NCBI GenBank assembly: GCA_003281335.1
Contig: QCCG01000001.1
Location: 186,001-250,000 of the forward strand
Length of the DNA stretch: 64,000 nt
Reading direction: 5' to 3'
DNA from: Prochlorococcus sp. AG-347-K19
GTDB lineage: Bacteria; Cyanobacteriota; Cyanobacteriia; PCC-6307; Cyanobiaceae
Shown here: positions 1 to 10,089 of the stretch, one piece after another
Layout of the letters: every line of letters begins with the position of its first letter
Position numbering within the stretch: position 1 is the first letter of the stretch
Position numbers and translations under genes: made by a program
The notes under the pieces: model-generated
The model's database searches: none
What the model was told of the DNA's origin: nothing
What the model saw: only the letters and a program-made list of their open reading frames with translations

Positions 1-2271
1 TGCGGTAATAGTGGTTACGCTGATCAAGGTCAAATCAATGATATGGCTAAATTAAAGCAGGTGCAGGCTACTTCAGAAGACTCTCGCAGCCGCTTTGGGG
101 ATGATACTGATGAAAGAAACCCAACTTTTTTCCTTCGTGAACTGCTTATTCTTCCTGATCTCACTAAAAGAGAAGTTTCTTTAGCTGTTGTTGATGATGA
201 TTTTCCATTCGGAACAGAATACCTAGCTAGTTCTACTTTTCGCGAAATTAACTTTGGTGAATTGTTAGCATCAGGGCAAATTCATACAATTGCTGGCAAA
301 AACTTAAGAGTAAGAGGGTTTGAAATTTGTAGAAGCTGCGGAAAAGTTCAGCAAGGCTCGCCCAGGGCTTCTAACCATACTTGGGGTTGCAAATTCCGTG
401 AGAAACCTGATTCTGCTGAACTTCATCACCTAATGTTTATATACCGCGAATTTAATTCAGAGGCTATTAGATTCCTTCTGCCTGGTTCTGATTTCTGGGA
501 TGATGTTGGACTACCCTCTTTTTTAAGTGCCCTTCATCTTGGACTCAAGCATCACTTTGGGGGCAAGGTTAATCATTTGCAATCTGCATTGTCTGAAGAA
601 CCTCAGCCATTAAGTCAACAGCGTAAAGCCTTTCTATACCTATATGACTCTATTCCAGGAGGGTCTGGGTATGTTCGTCAGTTGATGGAATCCAGAGGGC
701 GCGATTTACGAGCAGTTTTTGAAAAATCATTATCGATTATGACTAGTTGTCCTTGTAATGACGGTTGTTATCGTTGTATTTTTCAATATCGACAACGCTT
801 CGATCGAAAACGTACTAGTAAAGTTCGTGCTATCGAACAGTTTAAAAACATACTAAATAGATGGAATGATTTGAAATCTTCTGATCGCAGTCTTTCAGAA
901 ATAACAATTAATACTCGAGCTGAAAGTGAGCTTGAATTACGCTTTATTCAAAAACTGAAAGAAGGAAAAGGTCTGCCTGAAGGTGTCAAAGTCTCATTTC
1001 GTGATGATGTAATTAATGGAAGAAAGGGTTATAGAGTAATTTTCAATAATGGAGAAAAAAGTATTAGTTGGAAGTTAGAACTACAAGTACCACTTGGGTT
1101 GGAACAGGGTGTTGATGTCTTCTCAAGAGCTGATTTTTTACTTACTCCTACAGCAGGGGGTAAATCTATTGCAATATATACTGATGGGTGGGAATTTCAT
1201 CGAGGACGCCTGGCTAAAGATGCTGAACAAAGAATGGCATTACATAGAAATAATGACTATCTTTTCTGGGTATTAACTTGGGATGATGTAGTAGAAAAAC
1301 TTCCTAGTCCACAGAATGCACTTCAGCCAAACGGGCTTATACAGGTGAGACCTGAAGTCCTTAAAAGTGAAGGAGTTTTTAATAAATGGATACCTAATTC
1401 CGTTTTAAAGGAAATAGAGAAAAAAGGAATAATAAACTTACCTTCTAATAAAAATATTCAATGTCAAGGAAGTCTCGAACTTTTAATGACTTATATGGCT
1501 GCACCAATCGAAGAATTCTGGCAAAGTGTAGCCCAGCAATTTTCTCTATCTCAATTATCCAATACTAAAATTTCGGATAAAAAAATTTTTAGTAAGTTAA
1601 AGGAACTTAATCTACTCGAACATCTTGAAGATTGGAAGAATAACGATGAAAGAACTTTTGGTAATGTCCTTGAGCCTGCAACTGGTTTGATTTTAATTAA
1701 TGTTGGCGACATTACATGGCATAAAGAACTTAATCCAGGAGCTAGTTTCCGAGTTATACATTTTGATCCAACGCTAACAAATGATTCTCCTCATCAGGAA
1801 AAAATTTGGAGAGAGTGGATTCGACAAATTAATATATTTCAATTTTTGCCCAGACTTTTAATTTCTACTCCGGGCTGGACCGGTGAACAACAAAATAGCT
1901 CCATCAGCCCTTATTCTGTTTGGGTGAATAGATTTGACTCTACATCTTTAAATAGTCGAGATTCCTTTTCCAAAATTGAAAAGAGTTGGATTGAATTATC
2001 CTCATTGGTTGTTGCGGAATTTCGCCCAATTCTTGAAGCTATTAAGAAGTTAAATATTGATCAATCAATACCTATACCTGAAGTTGGTTTTGAGTTAGAG
2101 GGAAATAAAGGAGAGGTAATTGGACAAGCTGAATTAGCGTGGCCCAATAAAAAAATTGTTGTTTTAAATCAAGGGGATGATTCTAAAGTGTTTGAAAAAA
2201 AAGATTGGACTTATTTTGTTATCGATAACTCTCCTGAGAAAATTGCAAAAGCTTTATTTGAAGCTTTTTAA
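1..2271 (+). CDS. C-terminal part of large helicase-associated DUF1998 protein with nuclease-like domain (5' truncated by window)
   Basis: The reading frame is open to the first base, with a Cys-Gly-Asn start and no stop, so the first ATG (43) is probably internal and an N-terminal DEAD/DEAH helicase part likely lies upstream. Counting from that ATG, residues about 90-265 resemble the DUF1998 zinc module: CRSCGK near 96, a YDSIPGGSGY segment near 201-210, and CPC...GCYRC near 237-245. Residues about 290-420 look like a PD-(D/E)XK/Vsr-like nuclease: a Glu-rich start, then ADFLLTP, IYTDGWEFH and D..QR...HR. The tail contains GQAELAW near 696. DUF1998 helicases occur in DISARM (DrmB), Druantia (DruE) and Dpd systems; which one this is closest to, if any, cannot be told here. 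CGN arginine codons are frequent. The downstream helicase gene follows after 42 bases. Confidence 0.7.
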   Translation, partial: CGNSGYADQGQINDMAKLKQVQATSEDSRSRFGDDTDERNPTFFLRELLILPDLTKREVSLAVVDDDFPFGTEYLASSTFREINFGELLASGQIHTIAGKNLRVRGFEICRSCGKVQQGSPRASNHTWGCKFREKPDSAELHHLMFIYREFNSEAIRFLLPGSDFWDDVGLPSFLSALHLGLKHHFGGKVNHLQSALSEEPQPLSQQRKAFLYLYDSIPGGSGYVRQLMESRGRDLRAVFEKSLSIMTSCPCNDGCYRCIFQYRQRFDRKRTSKVRAIEQFKNILNRWNDLKSSDRSLSEITINTRAESELELRFIQKLKEGKGLPEGVKVSFRDDVINGRKGYRVIFNNGEKSISWKLELQVPLGLEQGVDVFSRADFLLTPTAGGKSIAIYTDGWEFHRGRLAKDAEQRMALHRNNDYLFWVLTWDDVVEKLPSPQNALQPNGLIQVRPEVLKSEGVFNKWIPNSVLKEIEKKGIINLPSNKNIQCQGSLELLMTYMAAPIEEFWQSVAQQFSLSQLSNTKISDKKIFSKLKELNLLEHLEDWKNNDERTFGNVLEPATGLILINVGDITWHKELNPGASFRVIHFDPTLTNDSPHQEKIWREWIRQINIFQFLPRLLISTPGWTGEQQNSSISPYSVWVNRFDSTSLNSRDSFSKIEKSWIELSSLVVAEFRPILEAIKKLNIDQSIPIPEVGFELEGNKGEVIGQAELAWPNKKIVVLNQGDDSKVFEKKDWTYFVIDNSPEKIAKALFEAF

Positions 2272-2313
2272 CTTATTTACTCAATGTTCTCTTTATCTTT
2301 TAAAAATATATAA

Positions 2314-4464
2314 ATGACTCAATCTCGTCTCACTGTTGCCGTTTCTAACGCCTTTTTCAAAAGTTTGAATAAGTTGTCCGATAAATCTCGAGGCAAAGTT
2401 GCTTCTTTTCTCTCAAAGTTTCGAGATAATCCGAGTAGCCCTGGTTTGAATTATGAGCATATTGAAGGAGGAAAAGATAAGTTAATACGTTCAGTTCGTG
2501 TAGATCAGGAAATTCGCTGCATTGTTAGGGCTCCAGATGAAGGAAATGTTTATGTTTTGCTTTGGGTTGATAAACATGATGATGCTTACCAATGGGCTAA
2601 AAGACGTTCTTGTCACGTTAATCGCGTTTCAGGAGCGCTTCAAATTGTAGATGTTGAGTCTGCAGAGGAGGCAGTAGCCACTTCAGTTGAAGGCATATCA
2701 GAAAAATCCACACCTTCAAAATCTGAAAACCTTTCCTCTCTTTTTGATAATTGTAGTAATGAACAGCTTATGCTTTTAGGCGTACCTGAGGTGCTATTAC
2801 CAGCAGTTCGCGCTTGTAATAATGAAGAGTCATTGGGCAGACTGATTGAATGGTTACCTCAGAGTTGTGTCGAGGGACTAATTCTTCTTGCAGATGGAGG
2901 CAATATTGAGGAAGTAATTAATGAAGTGGCTAATAATAATCAAGGGAAAGTTGATACAAGTGATGTTGCTACTGCATTGGATAGACCTGAAAGCATGGCA
3001 GAGTTTATGGTTATTACTGATGATGATGTTCTTGAAGCGATGCTTTCCGCACCAATGGAACAATGGCGGGTGTTTCTACATCCGAGTCAGCGTCTTTTGG
3101 TAGAGAGAGATTGGAACGGTGCATTTCGATTACTTGGTGGAGCGGGTACTGGTAAAACAGTTGTTGCGATGCACAAAGCAAGGTGGTTAGCGTCAAGAAA
3201 TATTAGGAATGGCAATTTAGGTAGGATTATGTTCACTACTTTTACTCGTAACCTTGCTACGGATATACGTAACAATTTAACCAAAATTTGTACTCCAGAA
3301 GAGTTGCAGATTATTGATGTACAACATCTTGATGGTTGGGTTTTGAATTTTTTAAAAGGGCAGGGTTTACCTGTACGTGTCTTTGATGAGAATGCGAAGA
3401 CTACTTGTTGGGATATGGCAATGTCCATGGAGGATACTTCCCTTTGTTTAGACAGACGTTTTTATGAAGAAGAGTGGAAAGAAGTCGTCTTAGCTAATGG
3501 ATGTACCTCTCTCTCTGACTATATTTCTGTAAGACGAATTGGTAGGGGAACGCGTTTGACTCGACAAAATAGAGTTAGAATATGGCCTGTATTTGATACC
3601 TTAAAATCTGAGCTTAGACAACGTGGTCTATGGGAGCCAGAAGAAGCTAAGCAAGCAGCTGCTGAATTATTAAAGAAATCTGATTCCTTCCCAAAATACG
3701 AATCTATAATTGTTGATGAAGGCCAGGACTTTGATATTTCCAGCTTCAAACTTCTCAGAGCATTAGTTGGAGAATCTCATCCAAATGATCTTTTTATAGT
3801 TGGAGATCCTCATCAACGTATATATGGTCGCCCTGTAGTTTTAGGGCAATGTGATATTGAGATTCGTGGTCGGTCTAGAAAATTAAGAATCAATTACCGT
3901 ACAACAGAAGAAACTCGCAATTGGGCTACTGCTGTACTTCAAGGCCTTGTTTTTGATGACCTTGATGGAGGTACCGAATCAAATAGTGATTATCGATCTC
4001 TTCTTCATGGAGATGAGCCTTTGATTAAGGGGTTTGACGATCCTGGTGAAGAACTTAAATTTCTCGTTAAAACCATCCATCAAATAAATTCAGAGCAAGG
4101 TAGTCTCAGCTCAACTTGCATCACAGCTCGTACTAATAAAGCTGTCAATAAATTAAATCTTTTGTTGCAGAAAGCCGGTTTCGATACTCGCATCATAAAT
4201 GAAAAGGAGTCAGATGATCCAAGTGATCATTCTCTTCGTTTAGCAACTATGCATAGGGTAAAAGGTCTTGAATTTGATCAGGTTTTAATTCCTGGACTTG
4301 ATGATTCTCAAATGCCTTACCGCTTTGAACTCGAAAAGAAACCAGACGAAACTTCAAAAGATTTATTTATTCAAAAAGAAAGATCTTTACTTCACGTAGC
4401 TGCAACAAGAGCAAAAAAAAGAGTTGTTATAACTTTCAGCGGTGAACCTTCTTCATTTATATAG
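2314..4464 (+). CDS. UvrD/Rep-family helicase with N-terminal RelE/ParE-like domain
   Basis: This is a 716-residue protein with the motifs of a superfamily 1A helicase. Walker A GGAGTGKT lies at 275-282, Walker B IIVDEGQDF near 466-474, GDPHQRIYGR near 495-504, the motif IV-like NYRTTEETR near 528, TMHRVKGLEFD near 647-657, and AATRAKKRVV near the end. Residues 1-100 resemble the RelE/ParE toxin fold: repeated hydrophobic/basic helices, then SVRVDQEIRCIV, and finally a HDDAYQWA segment. In related helicases this domain may bind nucleic acid rather than act as a toxin (inference). The gene is co-directional with the upstream DUF1998 gene and probably forms an operon with it. Codon usage is CGN-rich and unlike core genes. 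Likely an anti-phage or DNA-processing cargo gene; the exact job is unknown. Confidence 0.75.
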   Translation: MTQSRLTVAVSNAFFKSLNKLSDKSRGKVASFLSKFRDNPSSPGLNYEHIEGGKDKLIRSVRVDQEIRCIVRAPDEGNVYVLLWVDKHDDAYQWAKRRSCHVNRVSGALQIVDVESAEEAVATSVEGISEKSTPSKSENLSSLFDNCSNEQLMLLGVPEVLLPAVRACNNEESLGRLIEWLPQSCVEGLILLADGGNIEEVINEVANNNQGKVDTSDVATALDRPESMAEFMVITDDDVLEAMLSAPMEQWRVFLHPSQRLLVERDWNGAFRLLGGAGTGKTVVAMHKARWLASRNIRNGNLGRIMFTTFTRNLATDIRNNLTKICTPEELQIIDVQHLDGWVLNFLKGQGLPVRVFDENAKTTCWDMAMSMEDTSLCLDRRFYEEEWKEVVLANGCTSLSDYISVRRIGRGTRLTRQNRVRIWPVFDTLKSELRQRGLWEPEEAKQAAAELLKKSDSFPKYESIIVDEGQDFDISSFKLLRALVGESHPNDLFIVGDPHQRIYGRPVVLGQCDIEIRGRSRKLRINYRTTEETRNWATAVLQGLVFDDLDGGTESNSDYRSLLHGDEPLIKGFDDPGEELKFLVKTIHQINSEQGSLSSTCITARTNKAVNKLNLLLQKAGFDTRIINEKESDDPSDHSLRLATMHRVKGLEFDQVLIPGLDDSQMPYRFELEKKPDETSKDLFIQKERSLLHVAATRAKKRVVITFSGEPSSFI

Positions 4465-4509: not shown

Positions 4510-5592
4510 TTAAATGTTCTTTGAACCATATAAATGATTAGGACGACCGTTATTATTTTTATAATCTTTTCTAATTAAAAGTTCTTCCGAAAATAAATGT
4601 CTCAATATTCTTCTGGTATGTTGTTCACTAAATCCTATATTCTTTGAAATATCTTTTACATCTAGATAATCGTTTTTCTCTTTTAATAATTCTAAGATTT
4701 TAGAACGGCATAAATTTTCTTGTTTTGGTGATAACTGATTTTTACCAGAGGAGTGATAATACCATTTAAAAGTTTCCTGATCCCCTTGAATATTTAGCAA
4801 GGAACCCTCATCACAATTTCTCCCCTTTAAGCAAGTAAAAAGAAAGTGATCTTCAAAATCAGGTTTAATAGATTTATGAATACTCCAAATATCACTTGCT
4901 GCGGCATAGATTGATTGATTACCTATGACATCATGTTTGTTTACATTTATTCTCTCGCCATGCTCTGGTTTTTTTAAGTGCGAAGAAAATATTATGGGAA
5001 TATTTTTTTCGCATGCCAAATCATTTAGTTTATAAAGAGGTAATGCAAATTCAGCATCCTTATATGAATATTTACCACCCGTAAGAAGAGTTGTAATGGA
5101 ATCTAAAAAAACGACGTCATAATAATTTCCTATTAATTCACTTAACTTTTGAATATTTAATTTATCAAAGCCTCCATTTTTAAATAAAAAATCAACATTA
5201 TCAGATACTCCAATTATTCTTATTTTTTGGGCACAATTACTTCTTGATTCGTCAGCTTGAATAAACAAAACTTTTCCCTTTTTTGTAGAAAAAGTATTTA
5301 AAAATTTACTACCTTCTCCTATCGCAGATGCCATTGCATACATTAAAGATGTTTTCCCACTGGAAGATTCACCCGCAATAAGTATCAGATTTTTCCTTTC
5401 AATAATTTTGTCAATTATCCAATCTACTTTTTTGGTAGTTAATTTTAAATCTTTTGATGAAATAGGTTTTTGTACATTGTTGGAATGTGTAGATCTACTA
5501 TTAAATTTTTGATACATTTTGTTCTCGTAATTCTGATTTTGTAGCTTTTGTTTTTTTTCAATGTCTACGTAGCCGAAGTCTTCTAATGTCAT
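4510..5592 (-). CDS. RepA/RecA-like ATPase with C-terminal winged helix
   Basis: The protein has 360 residues and belongs to the AAA_25/RepA type of hexameric helicase-like ATPases. Walker A GESSSGKT lies at 74-81 and Walker B VVFLDSI at 160-166, with a sensor-like IIFSSHLKKPEHG segment near 200-212. Residues about 295-345 form a predicted winged helix-turn-helix (DISKNIGFSEQHTRRILRHL). Such proteins drive replication of plasmids and integrative elements. Its ATG overlaps the stop of the excisionase-like gene upstream (ATGA), so the two are translationally coupled. Codon use is AT-rich like the host. It converges with the UvrD helicase gene. The family call is firm; a replication role is inferred from context. 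Confidence 0.75.
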   Translation of the reverse strand: MTLEDFGYVDIEKKQKLQNQNYENKMYQKFNSRSTHSNNVQKPISSKDLKLTTKKVDWIIDKIIERKNLILIAGESSSGKTSLMYAMASAIGEGSKFLNTFSTKKGKVLFIQADESRSNCAQKIRIIGVSDNVDFLFKNGGFDKLNIQKLSELIGNYYDVVFLDSITTLLTGGKYSYKDAEFALPLYKLNDLACEKNIPIIFSSHLKKPEHGERINVNKHDVIGNQSIYAAASDIWSIHKSIKPDFEDHFLFTCLKGRNCDEGSLLNIQGDQETFKWYYHSSGKNQLSPKQENLCRSKILELLKEKNDYLDVKDISKNIGFSEQHTRRILRHLFSEELLIRKDYKNNNGRPNHLYGSKNI

Positions 5593-5846
5593 TTTTTGAC
5601 CTCCCTTTTTAATTCACTAATTAGTTGCTCGCCTTGTCTAATTAGACGACCTCGGTAATGGAACTCTTTAAGGATTTCAGAAACATTCCAAAGGATGCTT
5701 GAGTTGATATTTGCGCCTAAGATGTAATGTTTTTCTTCGATTAAAAACCCATTTTTTATATCACGATTTTTCTTTAAAAATTGAGAACTAACTCCTAAAT
5801 AAGCAGAAGCTTCTCTTGTTGGAAGCCAACGTGAATAATGTTCCAT
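5589..5846 (-). CDS. excisionase-like (MerR/HTH_17-type) DNA-binding protein
   Basis: This 85-residue protein starts with WLPTREASAYLGVSSQFLKK, the typical first helix-turn-helix of excisionase and HTH_17 proteins, followed by a basic C-terminal tail. Recombination directionality factors of tyrosine recombinases have this size and fold. It is also possible that it is a DNA-binding partner of the downstream ATPase, with which it overlaps by four bases. Its place between the recombinase and the ATPase supports a role in excision or control of the element. Confidence 0.65.
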   Translation of the reverse strand: MEHYSRWLPTREASAYLGVSSQFLKKNRDIKNGFLIEEKHYILGANINSSILWNVSEILKEFHYRGRLIRQGEQLISELKREVKK

Positions 5847-6225: not shown

Positions 6226-6522
6226 TTAGTCGTTTTCTTTTCTCCATTCTTCCATTTCTTTTACATGCTCTCTCATTTCTGGAGTATCTTTCCAAAACTT
6301 ACTATCGCACTCTCTACAACCAAACTTGCATTGAACAGGAGTTGGGTCTGGTATGCAACCAATTATAAATAGTGATTCATCGTAAAAATCTTCTTCGGTT
6401 GGATATCCCAGAATAGCTTTACCAATTTTTCTTGAATTACAAGAGGGACAACGATAAGGTTTTCTGTCTACCAGATACCAATTTGTATCCCCATAATTAT
6501 CAATCTGTTTTGCGTATGCCAT
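6226..6522 (-). CDS. zinc-ribbon-like hypothetical protein
   Basis: This 98-residue protein has two metal-binding-like Cys clusters: CPSC near residue 25 and CKFGCREC near 66-73. A charged C-terminal helix rich in Glu and Lys follows. It lies two bases downstream of the recombinase gene and is probably co-transcribed with it. I do not recognise the family; a small zinc ribbon with a nucleic-acid or protein contact role is plausible. Confidence 0.55.
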   Translation of the reverse strand: MAYAKQIDNYGDTNWYLVDRKPYRCPSCNSRKIGKAILGYPTEEDFYDESLFIIGCIPDPTPVQCKFGCRECDSKFWKDTPEMREHVKEMEEWRKEND

Positions 6523-7946: not shown

Positions 7947-8002
7947 AATAATCAATTTTAATTAATTTCTTATAACTTCTTTCGTAGCAATGCTTTTGGC
8001 CA

Positions 8003-8074
<72 letters not shown>

Positions 8075-8083
8075 AATTTTAAG

Positions 8084-9333: not shown

Positions 9334-10089
9334 ATGATAACAAACAAGTATTTAAGTTTACTGAATCGATATAAAACTGATTTGCCAACATTCACCATAG
9401 TTGGCGTAGGCCCTGGAGATCCATCGCTTTTAACAATTGCTGCTGTGGATGCAATAAAAAAAGCGAAAATTATAGTTTTCCCAATATCAGATGATAATAA
9501 AAAAAGTTTCGCTGCGGAAATAGTCAAGAAATACACCAAATTTAAAAAAAATATCCCTATTGTTTTTCCAATGGCTAGGAAGGATTTTGATCCAGATGAA
9601 ATATGGTCTAATGCTGTAGAAAAAATTGTGAAATTTATACAAGATGGCGAATCAGTTGTATTACTTTGTCTTGGAGATACTTCACTATTTGCAAGTTCTT
9701 CTAATATTTTGAGGTTAATAAAAAATAATCATGCTGAAATCATTACCAAAACAATACCTGGTATTTCCTCTCTTTCAGCGGCAGCAGCTTTGAATGATTT
9801 TGATTTGGTAAAAAAAGGCGAGACATTGATCATCAAAGAATGCCCTTCCTCTAATTCAGAATTAACATCGCTCATTAGGGTAAGTAAGGGGAATAAAACA
9901 GTCTTGGCTATTATGAAAGTTGGGAAACGATGGAATTTAGTCAGGAATATTTTAAAAAAAGAGGATATTATCGATACATCATTAATAGCTTTAAGTGTTG
10001 GTATGCCTGATCAAATTATTCAATATGCATCCCAATATAAAAAGGATTTTATGCCTTATTTTTCTTTAATTTTGATAAGGTTCGATTAA
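9334..10089 (+). CDS. cobI: precorrin-2 C20-methyltransferase
   Basis: The enzyme adds a methyl group at C20 of precorrin-2 or its cobalt form in corrin (pseudocobalamin) synthesis. The SAM-dependent tetrapyrrole methylase signature GVGPGDPSLLT is at 24-34, a CLGDTSLF segment near 109-116, and a PGISSLSAAAA loop near 145-155. The length, 251 residues, fits the family. Its stop overlaps the start of the next gene by one base (TAATG). Confidence 0.9.
   Translation: MITNKYLSLLNRYKTDLPTFTIVGVGPGDPSLLTIAAVDAIKKAKIIVFPISDDNKKSFAAEIVKKYTKFKKNIPIVFPMARKDFDPDEIWSNAVEKIVKFIQDGESVVLLCLGDTSLFASSSNILRLIKNNHAEIITKTIPGISSLSAAAALNDFDLVKKGETLIIKECPSSNSELTSLIRVSKGNKTVLAIMKVGKRWNLVRNILKKEDIIDTSLIALSVGMPDQIIQYASQYKKDFMPYFSLILIRFD

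Follow-up and report, generated by a model that had tools for sequence, protein, structure and literature searches.

An ARMADA type II operon is the very probable cargo of a tRNA-Thr-integrated mobile element in Prochlorococcus

Introduction

To which system do the two genes at the left edge of a 64,000-nucleotide stretch of Prochlorococcus sp. AG-347-K19 DNA belong? That whole stretch, here called the window (G000:C1:186001-250000 of a 1.47-Mb genome in 36 contigs), opens inside a large reading frame, which is followed 42 bp downstream by a gene for a UvrD-type helicase. An earlier note, made from the letters of the window, had taken the pair for a two-gene, perhaps undescribed module that targets DNA, and had suspected further partners upstream. 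Here, we report that the locus is very probably (about 0.93) a complete ARMADA type II anti-phage operon, carried as cargo by a 24.2-kb mobile element integrated at a tRNA-Thr gene; the system is a known kind of defense and not an undescribed one.

Results

The locus holds four genes in the ARMADA type II order

After the contig DNA left of the window was added, four co-directional genes, armA-armB-armC-armD, were found to follow one another with intergenic gaps of 3, 2, and 42 bp, encoding proteins of 972, 1625, 2155, and 716 amino acids (aa), respectively (Table 1). The suspected partners were found as armA and armB left of armC, the left-edge protein does continue upstream, and the two-gene appearance was an artifact of the window edge. 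Stop codons are absent from all four arm frames, and those of ArmC and ArmD are not chance frames, since both are intact and conserved (74% and 83% identical, respectively, in another Prochlorococcus genome). The operon has a GC content of 37 to 39%, versus 28 to 32% in the element shell and host and 31% for the genome. When the DNA before armA was scanned for promoters and terminators, promoter-like sites were not in excess (6 found, 7.6 expected).

ARMADA type II is described, in the part available of a 2025 preprint (Bell et al., PMC12458937), by a strict order of BrxHII-like, PglX-like, YprA-like, and GajB-like genes, the last with a RelE head, and the four genes here stand in that order. 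According to the same part of the preprint, each of the four genes is required in E. coli, where defense is direct and non-abortive; it needs ArmA K136 and D236, ArmB N971, ArmC K110 and D234, and ArmD K266, with a partial effect for ArmB G605 and ArmD D454. All eight of these residues are kept in register here (ArmA K139 and D239, ArmB G611 and N988, ArmC K102 and D228, and ArmD K281 and D468). Global identity for ArmA to ArmD is 44.5, 47.3, 37.8, and 44.4% to the ARMADA system of E. coli ATCC 8739 and 51.3, 51.3, 44.7, and 48.7% to a system on a Pseudanabaena plasmid. Furthermore, the alignment of ArmC to its E. coli counterpart spans the whole length (1196 bits, 2200 columns), whereas that to DruE-III of E. 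coli ATCC 8739 is confined to pieces of the helicase core (120 and 82 bits), such that ArmC does not match DruE-III along its length. Because gene content, order, end-to-end alignment, domain architecture, and 8/8 tested residues match, we assigned the locus to ARMADA type II, and the word undescribed has to be dropped. It could be argued that the operon is a remnant, with frames intact but decayed or silent, given that the host is streamlined and the system rare in its genus, but the four open frames and the eight retained residues oppose this, and we consider it unlikely.

Domain architecture of the Arm proteins

ArmC contains DEAD, Helicase_C, and MrfA Zn-binding domains, and its N-terminal part matches only DruE and other helicases. 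The MrfA Zn-binding domain (MZB) was detected by Pfam at residues 176 to 260 of the window frame (E=8e-14), in agreement with the DUF1998-type zinc module of the earlier note. In AlphaFold2 modeling, the C-terminal part of ArmC aligns best with PD-(D/E)XK-type nucleases, as had been proposed from reading: residues 18 to 215 best matched 3hrl (Z 7.2) and residues 368 to 467 PvuRts1I (Z 6.1), and D89, D106, H111, D118, R122, and D140 of the Vsr-like region (467-aa segment numbering) are invariant in 26 aligned sequences. Bell et al. describe, in the part available, a C-terminal Vsr-type PD-(D/E)XK domain, often together with an inactivated Vsr domain at the ArmC end, and, for type II ArmC, BrxA-like and MarR-like insertions and a coiled-coil finger (PMC12458937).

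The helicase assignment of ArmD was borne out by Pfam (UvrD_C, E=3e-22; UvrD-helicase, E=3e-18) and by a model that matches the UvrD structure at Z about 32. The first ~100 residues of ArmD are RelE-like at sub-threshold level only, all matches being of the Gp49/HigB/ParE kind (HigB, E=0.15; Gp49, E=0.11; for the head of the L137 homologue, Gp49 at E=0.009, also sub-threshold). R62, R68, H88, and Y92 of the head are invariant in 21 aligned sequences, and its secondary structure in the model may be RelE-like; a profile search of solved structures in PDB gave no relevant match to the head. The available text of Bell et al. names this domain RelE-like (PMC12458937), as did the earlier note.

ArmA matches the DrmD, BrxH, and DpdE models, which identifies a SNF2/RapA-type helicase, and the kinship with DISARM, Druantia, and Dpd helicases seen in the earlier note stands. 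ArmB, which has an NPPW motif, is an adenine methyltransferase of the PglX/type-IIG-like kind; in an alignment of only three sequences, the conserved E-x-K of a type IIG nuclease was not seen in the first ~350 residues, and a profile search of PDB structures returned no relative of ArmB at E<=1e-5. These matches led us to consider a variant of DISARM class 1, since ArmA and ArmB match the PADLOC models DrmD (E=1e-97) and DrmMI (E=4e-55). However, the best ArmB match is the type IIG model (E=3e-264), DUF1998 is fused into ArmC in place of a separate DrmB, and DrmC is not among the four genes of the operon. The true DISARM of a sister element (L064) scores far higher (DrmD, E=1e-292; DrmMI, 1124 bits), and only pieces of its DrmD and DrmMI could be aligned to ArmA and ArmB, at 32 to 33% and 25%. 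We regard a DISARM variant as highly unlikely.

Several points weigh against the ARMADA type II assignment. The E. coli work on ARMADA is so far a preprint (Bell et al. 2025, PMC12458937), and defense activity in the present host is predicted from sequence. ArmC was placed nearer to ARMADA than to the Druantia YprA homologues by pairwise alignment, not by a tree. The structural Z scores behind its Vsr-like assignment (7.2 and 6.1) are middling, and Foldseek gave no match to the C-terminal model at E<=0.001. Finally, the ArmD head falls below every curated cut-off.

The operon lies in a mobile element whose relatives carry other defense systems

Forty-six base pairs of the 3' part of tRNA-Thr recur with one mismatch at G000:C1:169862-169907, which bounds the element at 24.2 kb. 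The integrase matched the NCBIfam XerA-type family at E=6e-8, under that family's cut-off; it is 91 to 97% identical in 8 other genomes of 266, beside tRNA-Thr in all eight, and armD was not found in these genomes at E<=1e-20. The att repeat, tRNA-Thr, and integrase agree with the earlier proposal of a mobile, tRNA-associated island with probable DNA-targeting defense cargo.

The AAA ATPase of the element (Pfam AAA_25, E=6e-15; PHROG primase/helicase families) is 89 to 90% identical in four sister elements, L064, L065, L066, and L068. L064 (G433:C8) carries drmD-drmMI-drmA-drmB-drmC, and L068 (G533:C5) carries brxB, brxC, pglX, and pglZ, both by PADLOC. L065 (G454:C1) has the DISARM set of L064 at 52 to 95% identity, judged by similarity and with drmD incomplete in the stretch, together with a 398-aa protein without a PADLOC match. 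L066 begins at a contig start and shows only a DrmD-like protein of 28.7% identity. Among other elements, L061 and L062 (G450 and G521) have a helicase/WYL/methyltransferase set in common, the stretch of L063 is too short for cargo, and L071 measures 6.8 kb and has, at tRNA-Thr, a related integrase (60%); the left-flank genes of the window element lie beyond the att of L071. PADLOC was applied to two sets of cargo proteins, one of nine (L064 and L068) and one of seven (L061, L065, L068, and L070); no match was obtained at E<=1e-5 for two large cargo proteins of tRNA-Thr elements (L070:5635-10845, 1737 aa; L061:13927-16887, 987 aa), and none for a 278-aa protein of L068.

The shells around ARMADA and DISARM were compared directly. 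The left side of the shell is 95.6% identical between the window element and L064 across 1,856 bp, and the right side 93.9% identical across 3,584 bp. On the right, the similarity begins about 30 bp past the armD stop and about 24 bp past the drmC stop; the left-hand similarity stops about 45 bp short of drmD in L064 versus about 1.2 kb short of armA here, where a GIY-YIG-like gene (L005:4811-5872) lies in between. We read this pattern as whole-cassette exchange of defense systems within one mobile shell.

Other parts of the shell were also inspected. A 113-aa protein just inside the distal att (L005:2020-2361, that is, G000:C1:170020-170361) recurs at L062:1681-2019, L069:10410-10748, and L072:792-1118, these three copies being 88 to 96% identical to it. 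It matches a PHROG of unknown function (E=7e-8) and, below threshold, Sigma70_r4, and neither it nor the integrase has a relative in viral contigs; with such matches, a role in packaging, to which its resemblance on reading to a terminase small subunit had pointed, was dropped. Three small shell proteins of 151 to 175 aa (L005:3264-4742), 95 to 96% identical in L064, have N termini resembling signal peptides. The 85-aa protein beside the AAA ATPase is perhaps a small DNA-binding regulator, a guess from position and reading.

Table 1. Features of the ARMADA type II locus and its element (window coordinates unless a contig is named)
Feature	Coordinates	Strand	Basis or remark
armA	G000:C1:174002-176920	same direction as armD	SNF2/RapA-type helicase, left of window
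armB	G000:C1:176924-181801	same direction as armD	PglX-like methyltransferase, left of window
armC, whole gene	G000:C1:181804-188271	+	YprA-like DEAD/DEAH helicase, 2155 aa
armC, 3' part	1..2271	+	frame open at left edge; start upstream of window
MrfA Zn-binding (DUF1998/MZB) domain of ArmC	526..780	+	Pfam PF09369
PD-(D/E)XK (Vsr-like) nuclease-like domain of ArmC	919..1308	+	invariant residues and structure model
Terminal degenerate nuclease-like tail of ArmC	1978..2268	+	common to ZorE, GmrSD, TmtA/sacsin-like, and other proteins
armD	2314..4464	+	RelE-like N terminus fused to UvrD/GajB-like SF1 helicase
RelE-like N-terminal domain of ArmD	2314..2610	+	sub-threshold matches and preprint
RepA/DnaB-like AAA ATPase, probable element replication protein	4510..5592	-	Pfam AAA_25, PHROG
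85-aa element protein	5589..5846	-	no family match above noise
98-aa Cys-rich protein, adjoins integrase, kept with element	6226..6522	-	conservation
Tyrosine recombinase (integrase), 449 aa	6525..7874	-	NCBIfam XerA-type
tRNA-Thr(GGT), integration site	8002..8075	-	
46-bp att repeat, 3' part of tRNA-Thr	8003..8048	-	45/46 match to G000:C1:169862-169907

ARMADA type II is rare in the genus, with ArmD relatives in several bacterial groups

Among 266 same-genus genomes, ArmD was found at E<=1e-20 in one, the window's own, and its nearest named relative is in Prochlorococcus sp. AG-409-A10 (83%). This rarity bears on the idea that the genes encode housekeeping or repair helicases (MrfA/YprA plus UvrD), with which the MrfA-type zinc domain and the UvrD motor would fit. 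Yet the genes sit in an accessory island, their GC content deviates, their partners are methyltransferase and nuclease-like, and ArmC is far larger than a plain MrfA. Neither of the two findings that the earlier note had named as fatal to a defense role, a plain MrfA-like repair helicase or an invariable housekeeping context, was obtained, and a repair set appears extremely improbable.

In the family, 24 of 300 genomes gave an ArmD-like match (E<=1e-40), 19 at >=60% identity and 5 at about 33% only. When named genomes were scanned, 429 relatives were obtained, of which the best 80 were kept as loci, with a flank of 10 kb that ends inside or before armB. These 80 come from cyanobacteria, gamma- and deltaproteobacteria, Synergistaceae, and other groups. 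At 73 loci, armC precedes armD; four of the remaining seven offer at most about 1 kb upstream, and in the last three ZorE-like or other genes occupy that place. Within the stretch, ArmB was found at 31 loci and ArmA upstream at only two.

Such counts would suit a separate two-gene system of a DUF1998 helicase and a UvrD module, since the C-D pair can look alone at the 49 loci without ArmB in the stretch examined, ArmD stands without ArmC in the stretch at three (L124, L125, and L137), and 5 of the 24 genomes searched whole have no ArmB at E<=1e-60. However, ArmB is present by the same threshold in the other 19, even though 21 of the 24 were chosen with no ArmB visible in the flank, and armA and armB lie directly upstream in the window's own genome. 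For this locus, the upstream DNA rules out a two-gene system, and a new, separate helicase/nuclease system appears very improbable. ArmB stands on the ArmC contig roughly 2 to 6 kb upstream in nine genomes (G548, G550, G553, G554, G558, G561, G562, G563, and G564) and on a different contig in G556 and G565, and other genes stand between armB and armC in L087. ARMADA type II therefore usually has four genes, sometimes with others inserted between B and C.

A few loci were set apart. In L124 and L125 (Pseudomonas) and L137 (Vibrio albus), the ArmD homologue follows ZorA-ZorB-ZorE-like genes, and ArmD may there serve Zorya-type systems. In two distant lineages, a tail-bearing GmrSD-type gene lies between armB and armC (L131:1376-3610 and L095:532-2679). 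L106, a metagenome-assembled genome (MAG) labeled Methanococcoides, an archaeon, has ArmB-, ArmC-, and ArmD-like genes, and the preprint, in the part available, gives ARMADA type II as absent from archaea (PMC12458937); mis-binning is likely, since the L106 tail closely resembles the one in a deltaproteobacterial MAG (L112). In two separate counts, 581 of 5426 E. coli genomes match zorE of ATCC 8739 and 525 match armD.

The ArmC tail recurs in unrelated defense proteins

In the PADLOC scan, residues 663 to 749 of the window frame matched positions 285 to 367 of the 375-residue ZorE model. A first profile of this tail included some non-ArmC members, ZorE, GmrSD, and two short proteins among them; a second, A2, was made from ArmC ends only and used for the genome searches. 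With A2, the tail was found in 17 of 300 family genomes, all among the 19 with a close ArmD, and the two that lack it (G063 and G292) both have incomplete ArmD matches. In 24 genomes chosen for ArmD, A2 detected 32 tail copies, of which 21 end ArmC-sized frames and 11 lie in other frames.

The non-ArmC carriers are ZorE or ZorE-sized proteins, a GmrSD-type protein (L131), three sacsin/TmtA-like proteins, and two short proteins. Those of ZorE type were recognized by sub-threshold HNH matches in L137 and L153 and, for the carriers of 391 and 400 aa, by reading and neighbors; one sacsin/TmtA-like carrier has a sub-threshold SACS score and a TmtA match at E=4e-12. In L137, the tail lies just beyond the end of the TmtA match (TmtA, 6 to 1524; tail, 1529 to 1604). 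Tail positions include L131:3011-3283 and 3338-3592, two copies in the GmrSD protein, L137:3928-4197 and 9533-9763, and L156:15180-15425. The GmrSD-like protein of L095 gave a weaker match with the first, mixed profile (E=2.5e-8), which A2 did not recover at E<=1e-5, one match only being found in its genome (G547). In G187, the tail is also present on a second UvrD-type protein, and ZorE of E. coli ATCC 8739 has it though outside the profile. In the two genome sets searched above, tail copies of one genome are no more than about 22 kb apart; the exception is G205, where two copies 130 kb apart each stand beside their own ArmD.

In the family of G544, 26 of 197 genomes contain the tail, 16 a DruE-III-like gene, and 6 an ArmD match, near full length in four (G544, G601, G641, and G744). 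Ten of the tail genomes have DruE, and all four with near-full-length ArmD have the tail (Fisher p=1e-6 and 2e-4, respectively, with the 197 genomes taken as unrelated). The tail is overrepresented where ArmD or Druantia genes occur, and neither is needed for its presence. Because 14 of the 26 tail genomes hold neither a near-full-length ArmD nor a DruE-III-like gene, these data indicate association, not exclusivity, and the idea that the tail is a mark of ArmD partners alone was rejected; two of the genomes with neither helicase, G606 and G632, have three tail copies each on separate contigs.

The AlphaFold2 model of the tail best matched PvuRts1I, AbaSI, and Can2, which we take to be PD-(D/E)XK-type nucleases, at Z 5 to 6, a level that can reflect common arrangement only; a search of PDB with the tail profile gave no relevant relative. 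In direction, the model agrees with the inactivated Vsr domains placed at the ArmC end in the available text of Bell et al. (PMC12458937). A 2026 preprint reports, in the part available, that 53 of 59 Druantia-linked ZorE leaves bear at their C terminus a nuclease-like region, which could not be assigned (PMC13192584), and by its position we take this region to be the same tail. The same source reports that a stable ZorE-Druantia complex was not found, which speaks against a simple dock. The main text of PMC12458937 has no ZorE, GmrSD, TmtA, or sacsin, and that of PMC13192584 no ArmC, GmrSD, TmtA, sacsin, or Vsr; with these terms absent from the main texts, the ArmC-ZorE tail link is drawn in neither preprint and, within a limited search of other papers, looks like a new lead of the present analysis.

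Discussion

From the homologies of its four proteins, we infer a division of labor for ARMADA type II. ArmB, as an adenine methyltransferase of the PglX/YeeA type, would recognize a motif and mark or discriminate self DNA, and ArmA (SNF2/RapA-like) and ArmC (YprA-like, with canopy and Zn modules) would translocate on invading DNA, which the Vsr-like PD-(D/E)XK domain of ArmC would cut. ArmD would process exposed DNA or nascent RNA, and its RelE-like head may act on the latter. The outcome would be direct, non-abortive interference, overall a methylation-aware restriction.

For the tail of ~95 residues, a tentative and rather doubtful proposal is that it works as an adaptor, plugging unrelated defense effectors into helicase-driven DNA-processing systems, and so as a tag that couples neighboring systems, not as a nuclease. 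Its carriers, which often cluster around one armD gene, are ArmC, ZorE (Zorya II), GmrSD, TmtA/sacsin-like proteins, and the second UvrD-type protein. The tail could recruit common DNA intermediates or itself be recruited to them, by analogy to what is proposed for ZorE in the available part of PMC13192584. A common tail would offer a testable explanation for the clustering and joint action of some defense systems, and a homology for the ZorE extension left unassigned in that source.

The assignment places a complete multi-helicase defense system of a demonstrated type in Prochlorococcus. A single integrative-element shell is found with ARMADA, DISARM, or BREX as complete cassettes at the same tRNA gene, and the ARMADA- and DISARM-bearing shells, 94 to 96% identical where they align beside the cargo, provide a natural comparison for the movement of large defense systems in the ocean.

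Comparison with known systems

DISARM class 1 has homologues of the SNF2 helicase and the PglX-like methyltransferase in common with the ARMADA operon, and in L064 and L065 it is the cargo of the same shell; unlike the operon, it has a separate DrmB, DrmC (PLD), and a distinct DrmA. As for BREX, the four genes here are all of kinds other than brxC/pglY and pglZ, and PglZ and BrxC are absent among the PADLOC matches listed (best 25 per protein), a scan that covered ArmC outside its N-terminal part. DruE of Druantia type III has the YprA helicase core and zinc domain in common with ArmC, and differs by two PLD domains and a DruH partner according to the available parts of the preprints; methyltransferase, SNF2, and UvrD genes are not part of the system as described. 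On reading the open reading frames of the locus, no DruH was recognized, with no search aimed at it in this genome, and by the same kind of reading no neighboring Zorya II or Druantia III was recognized in the element.

The vehicle resembles the tycheposons of Prochlorococcus, which have a tRNA site, tyrosine recombinase, att repeat, and variable cargo in common with it in the available parts of PMC10872708 and PMC11389934; the tRNA integration, tyrosine recombinase, and variable cargo by which they are described second-hand are all found here, the family being compared by description only. ARMADA type I also has SNF2, PglX, and YprA genes, in the same order in many cyanobacteria, and armD, encoding the RelE-UvrD fusion, is the addition that marks type II in the available part of the preprint (PMC12458937) and is present here. 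With ARMADA type II of E. coli NCTC 12900 and ATCC 8739, finally, the locus shares its four genes, their order, the domain fusions, the catalytic residues, and a place on a tRNA-targeting mobile element; it differs in its identity of 38 to 47% to the ATCC 8739 proteins and in its vehicle, a distinct, cyanobacterial tRNA-Thr element.

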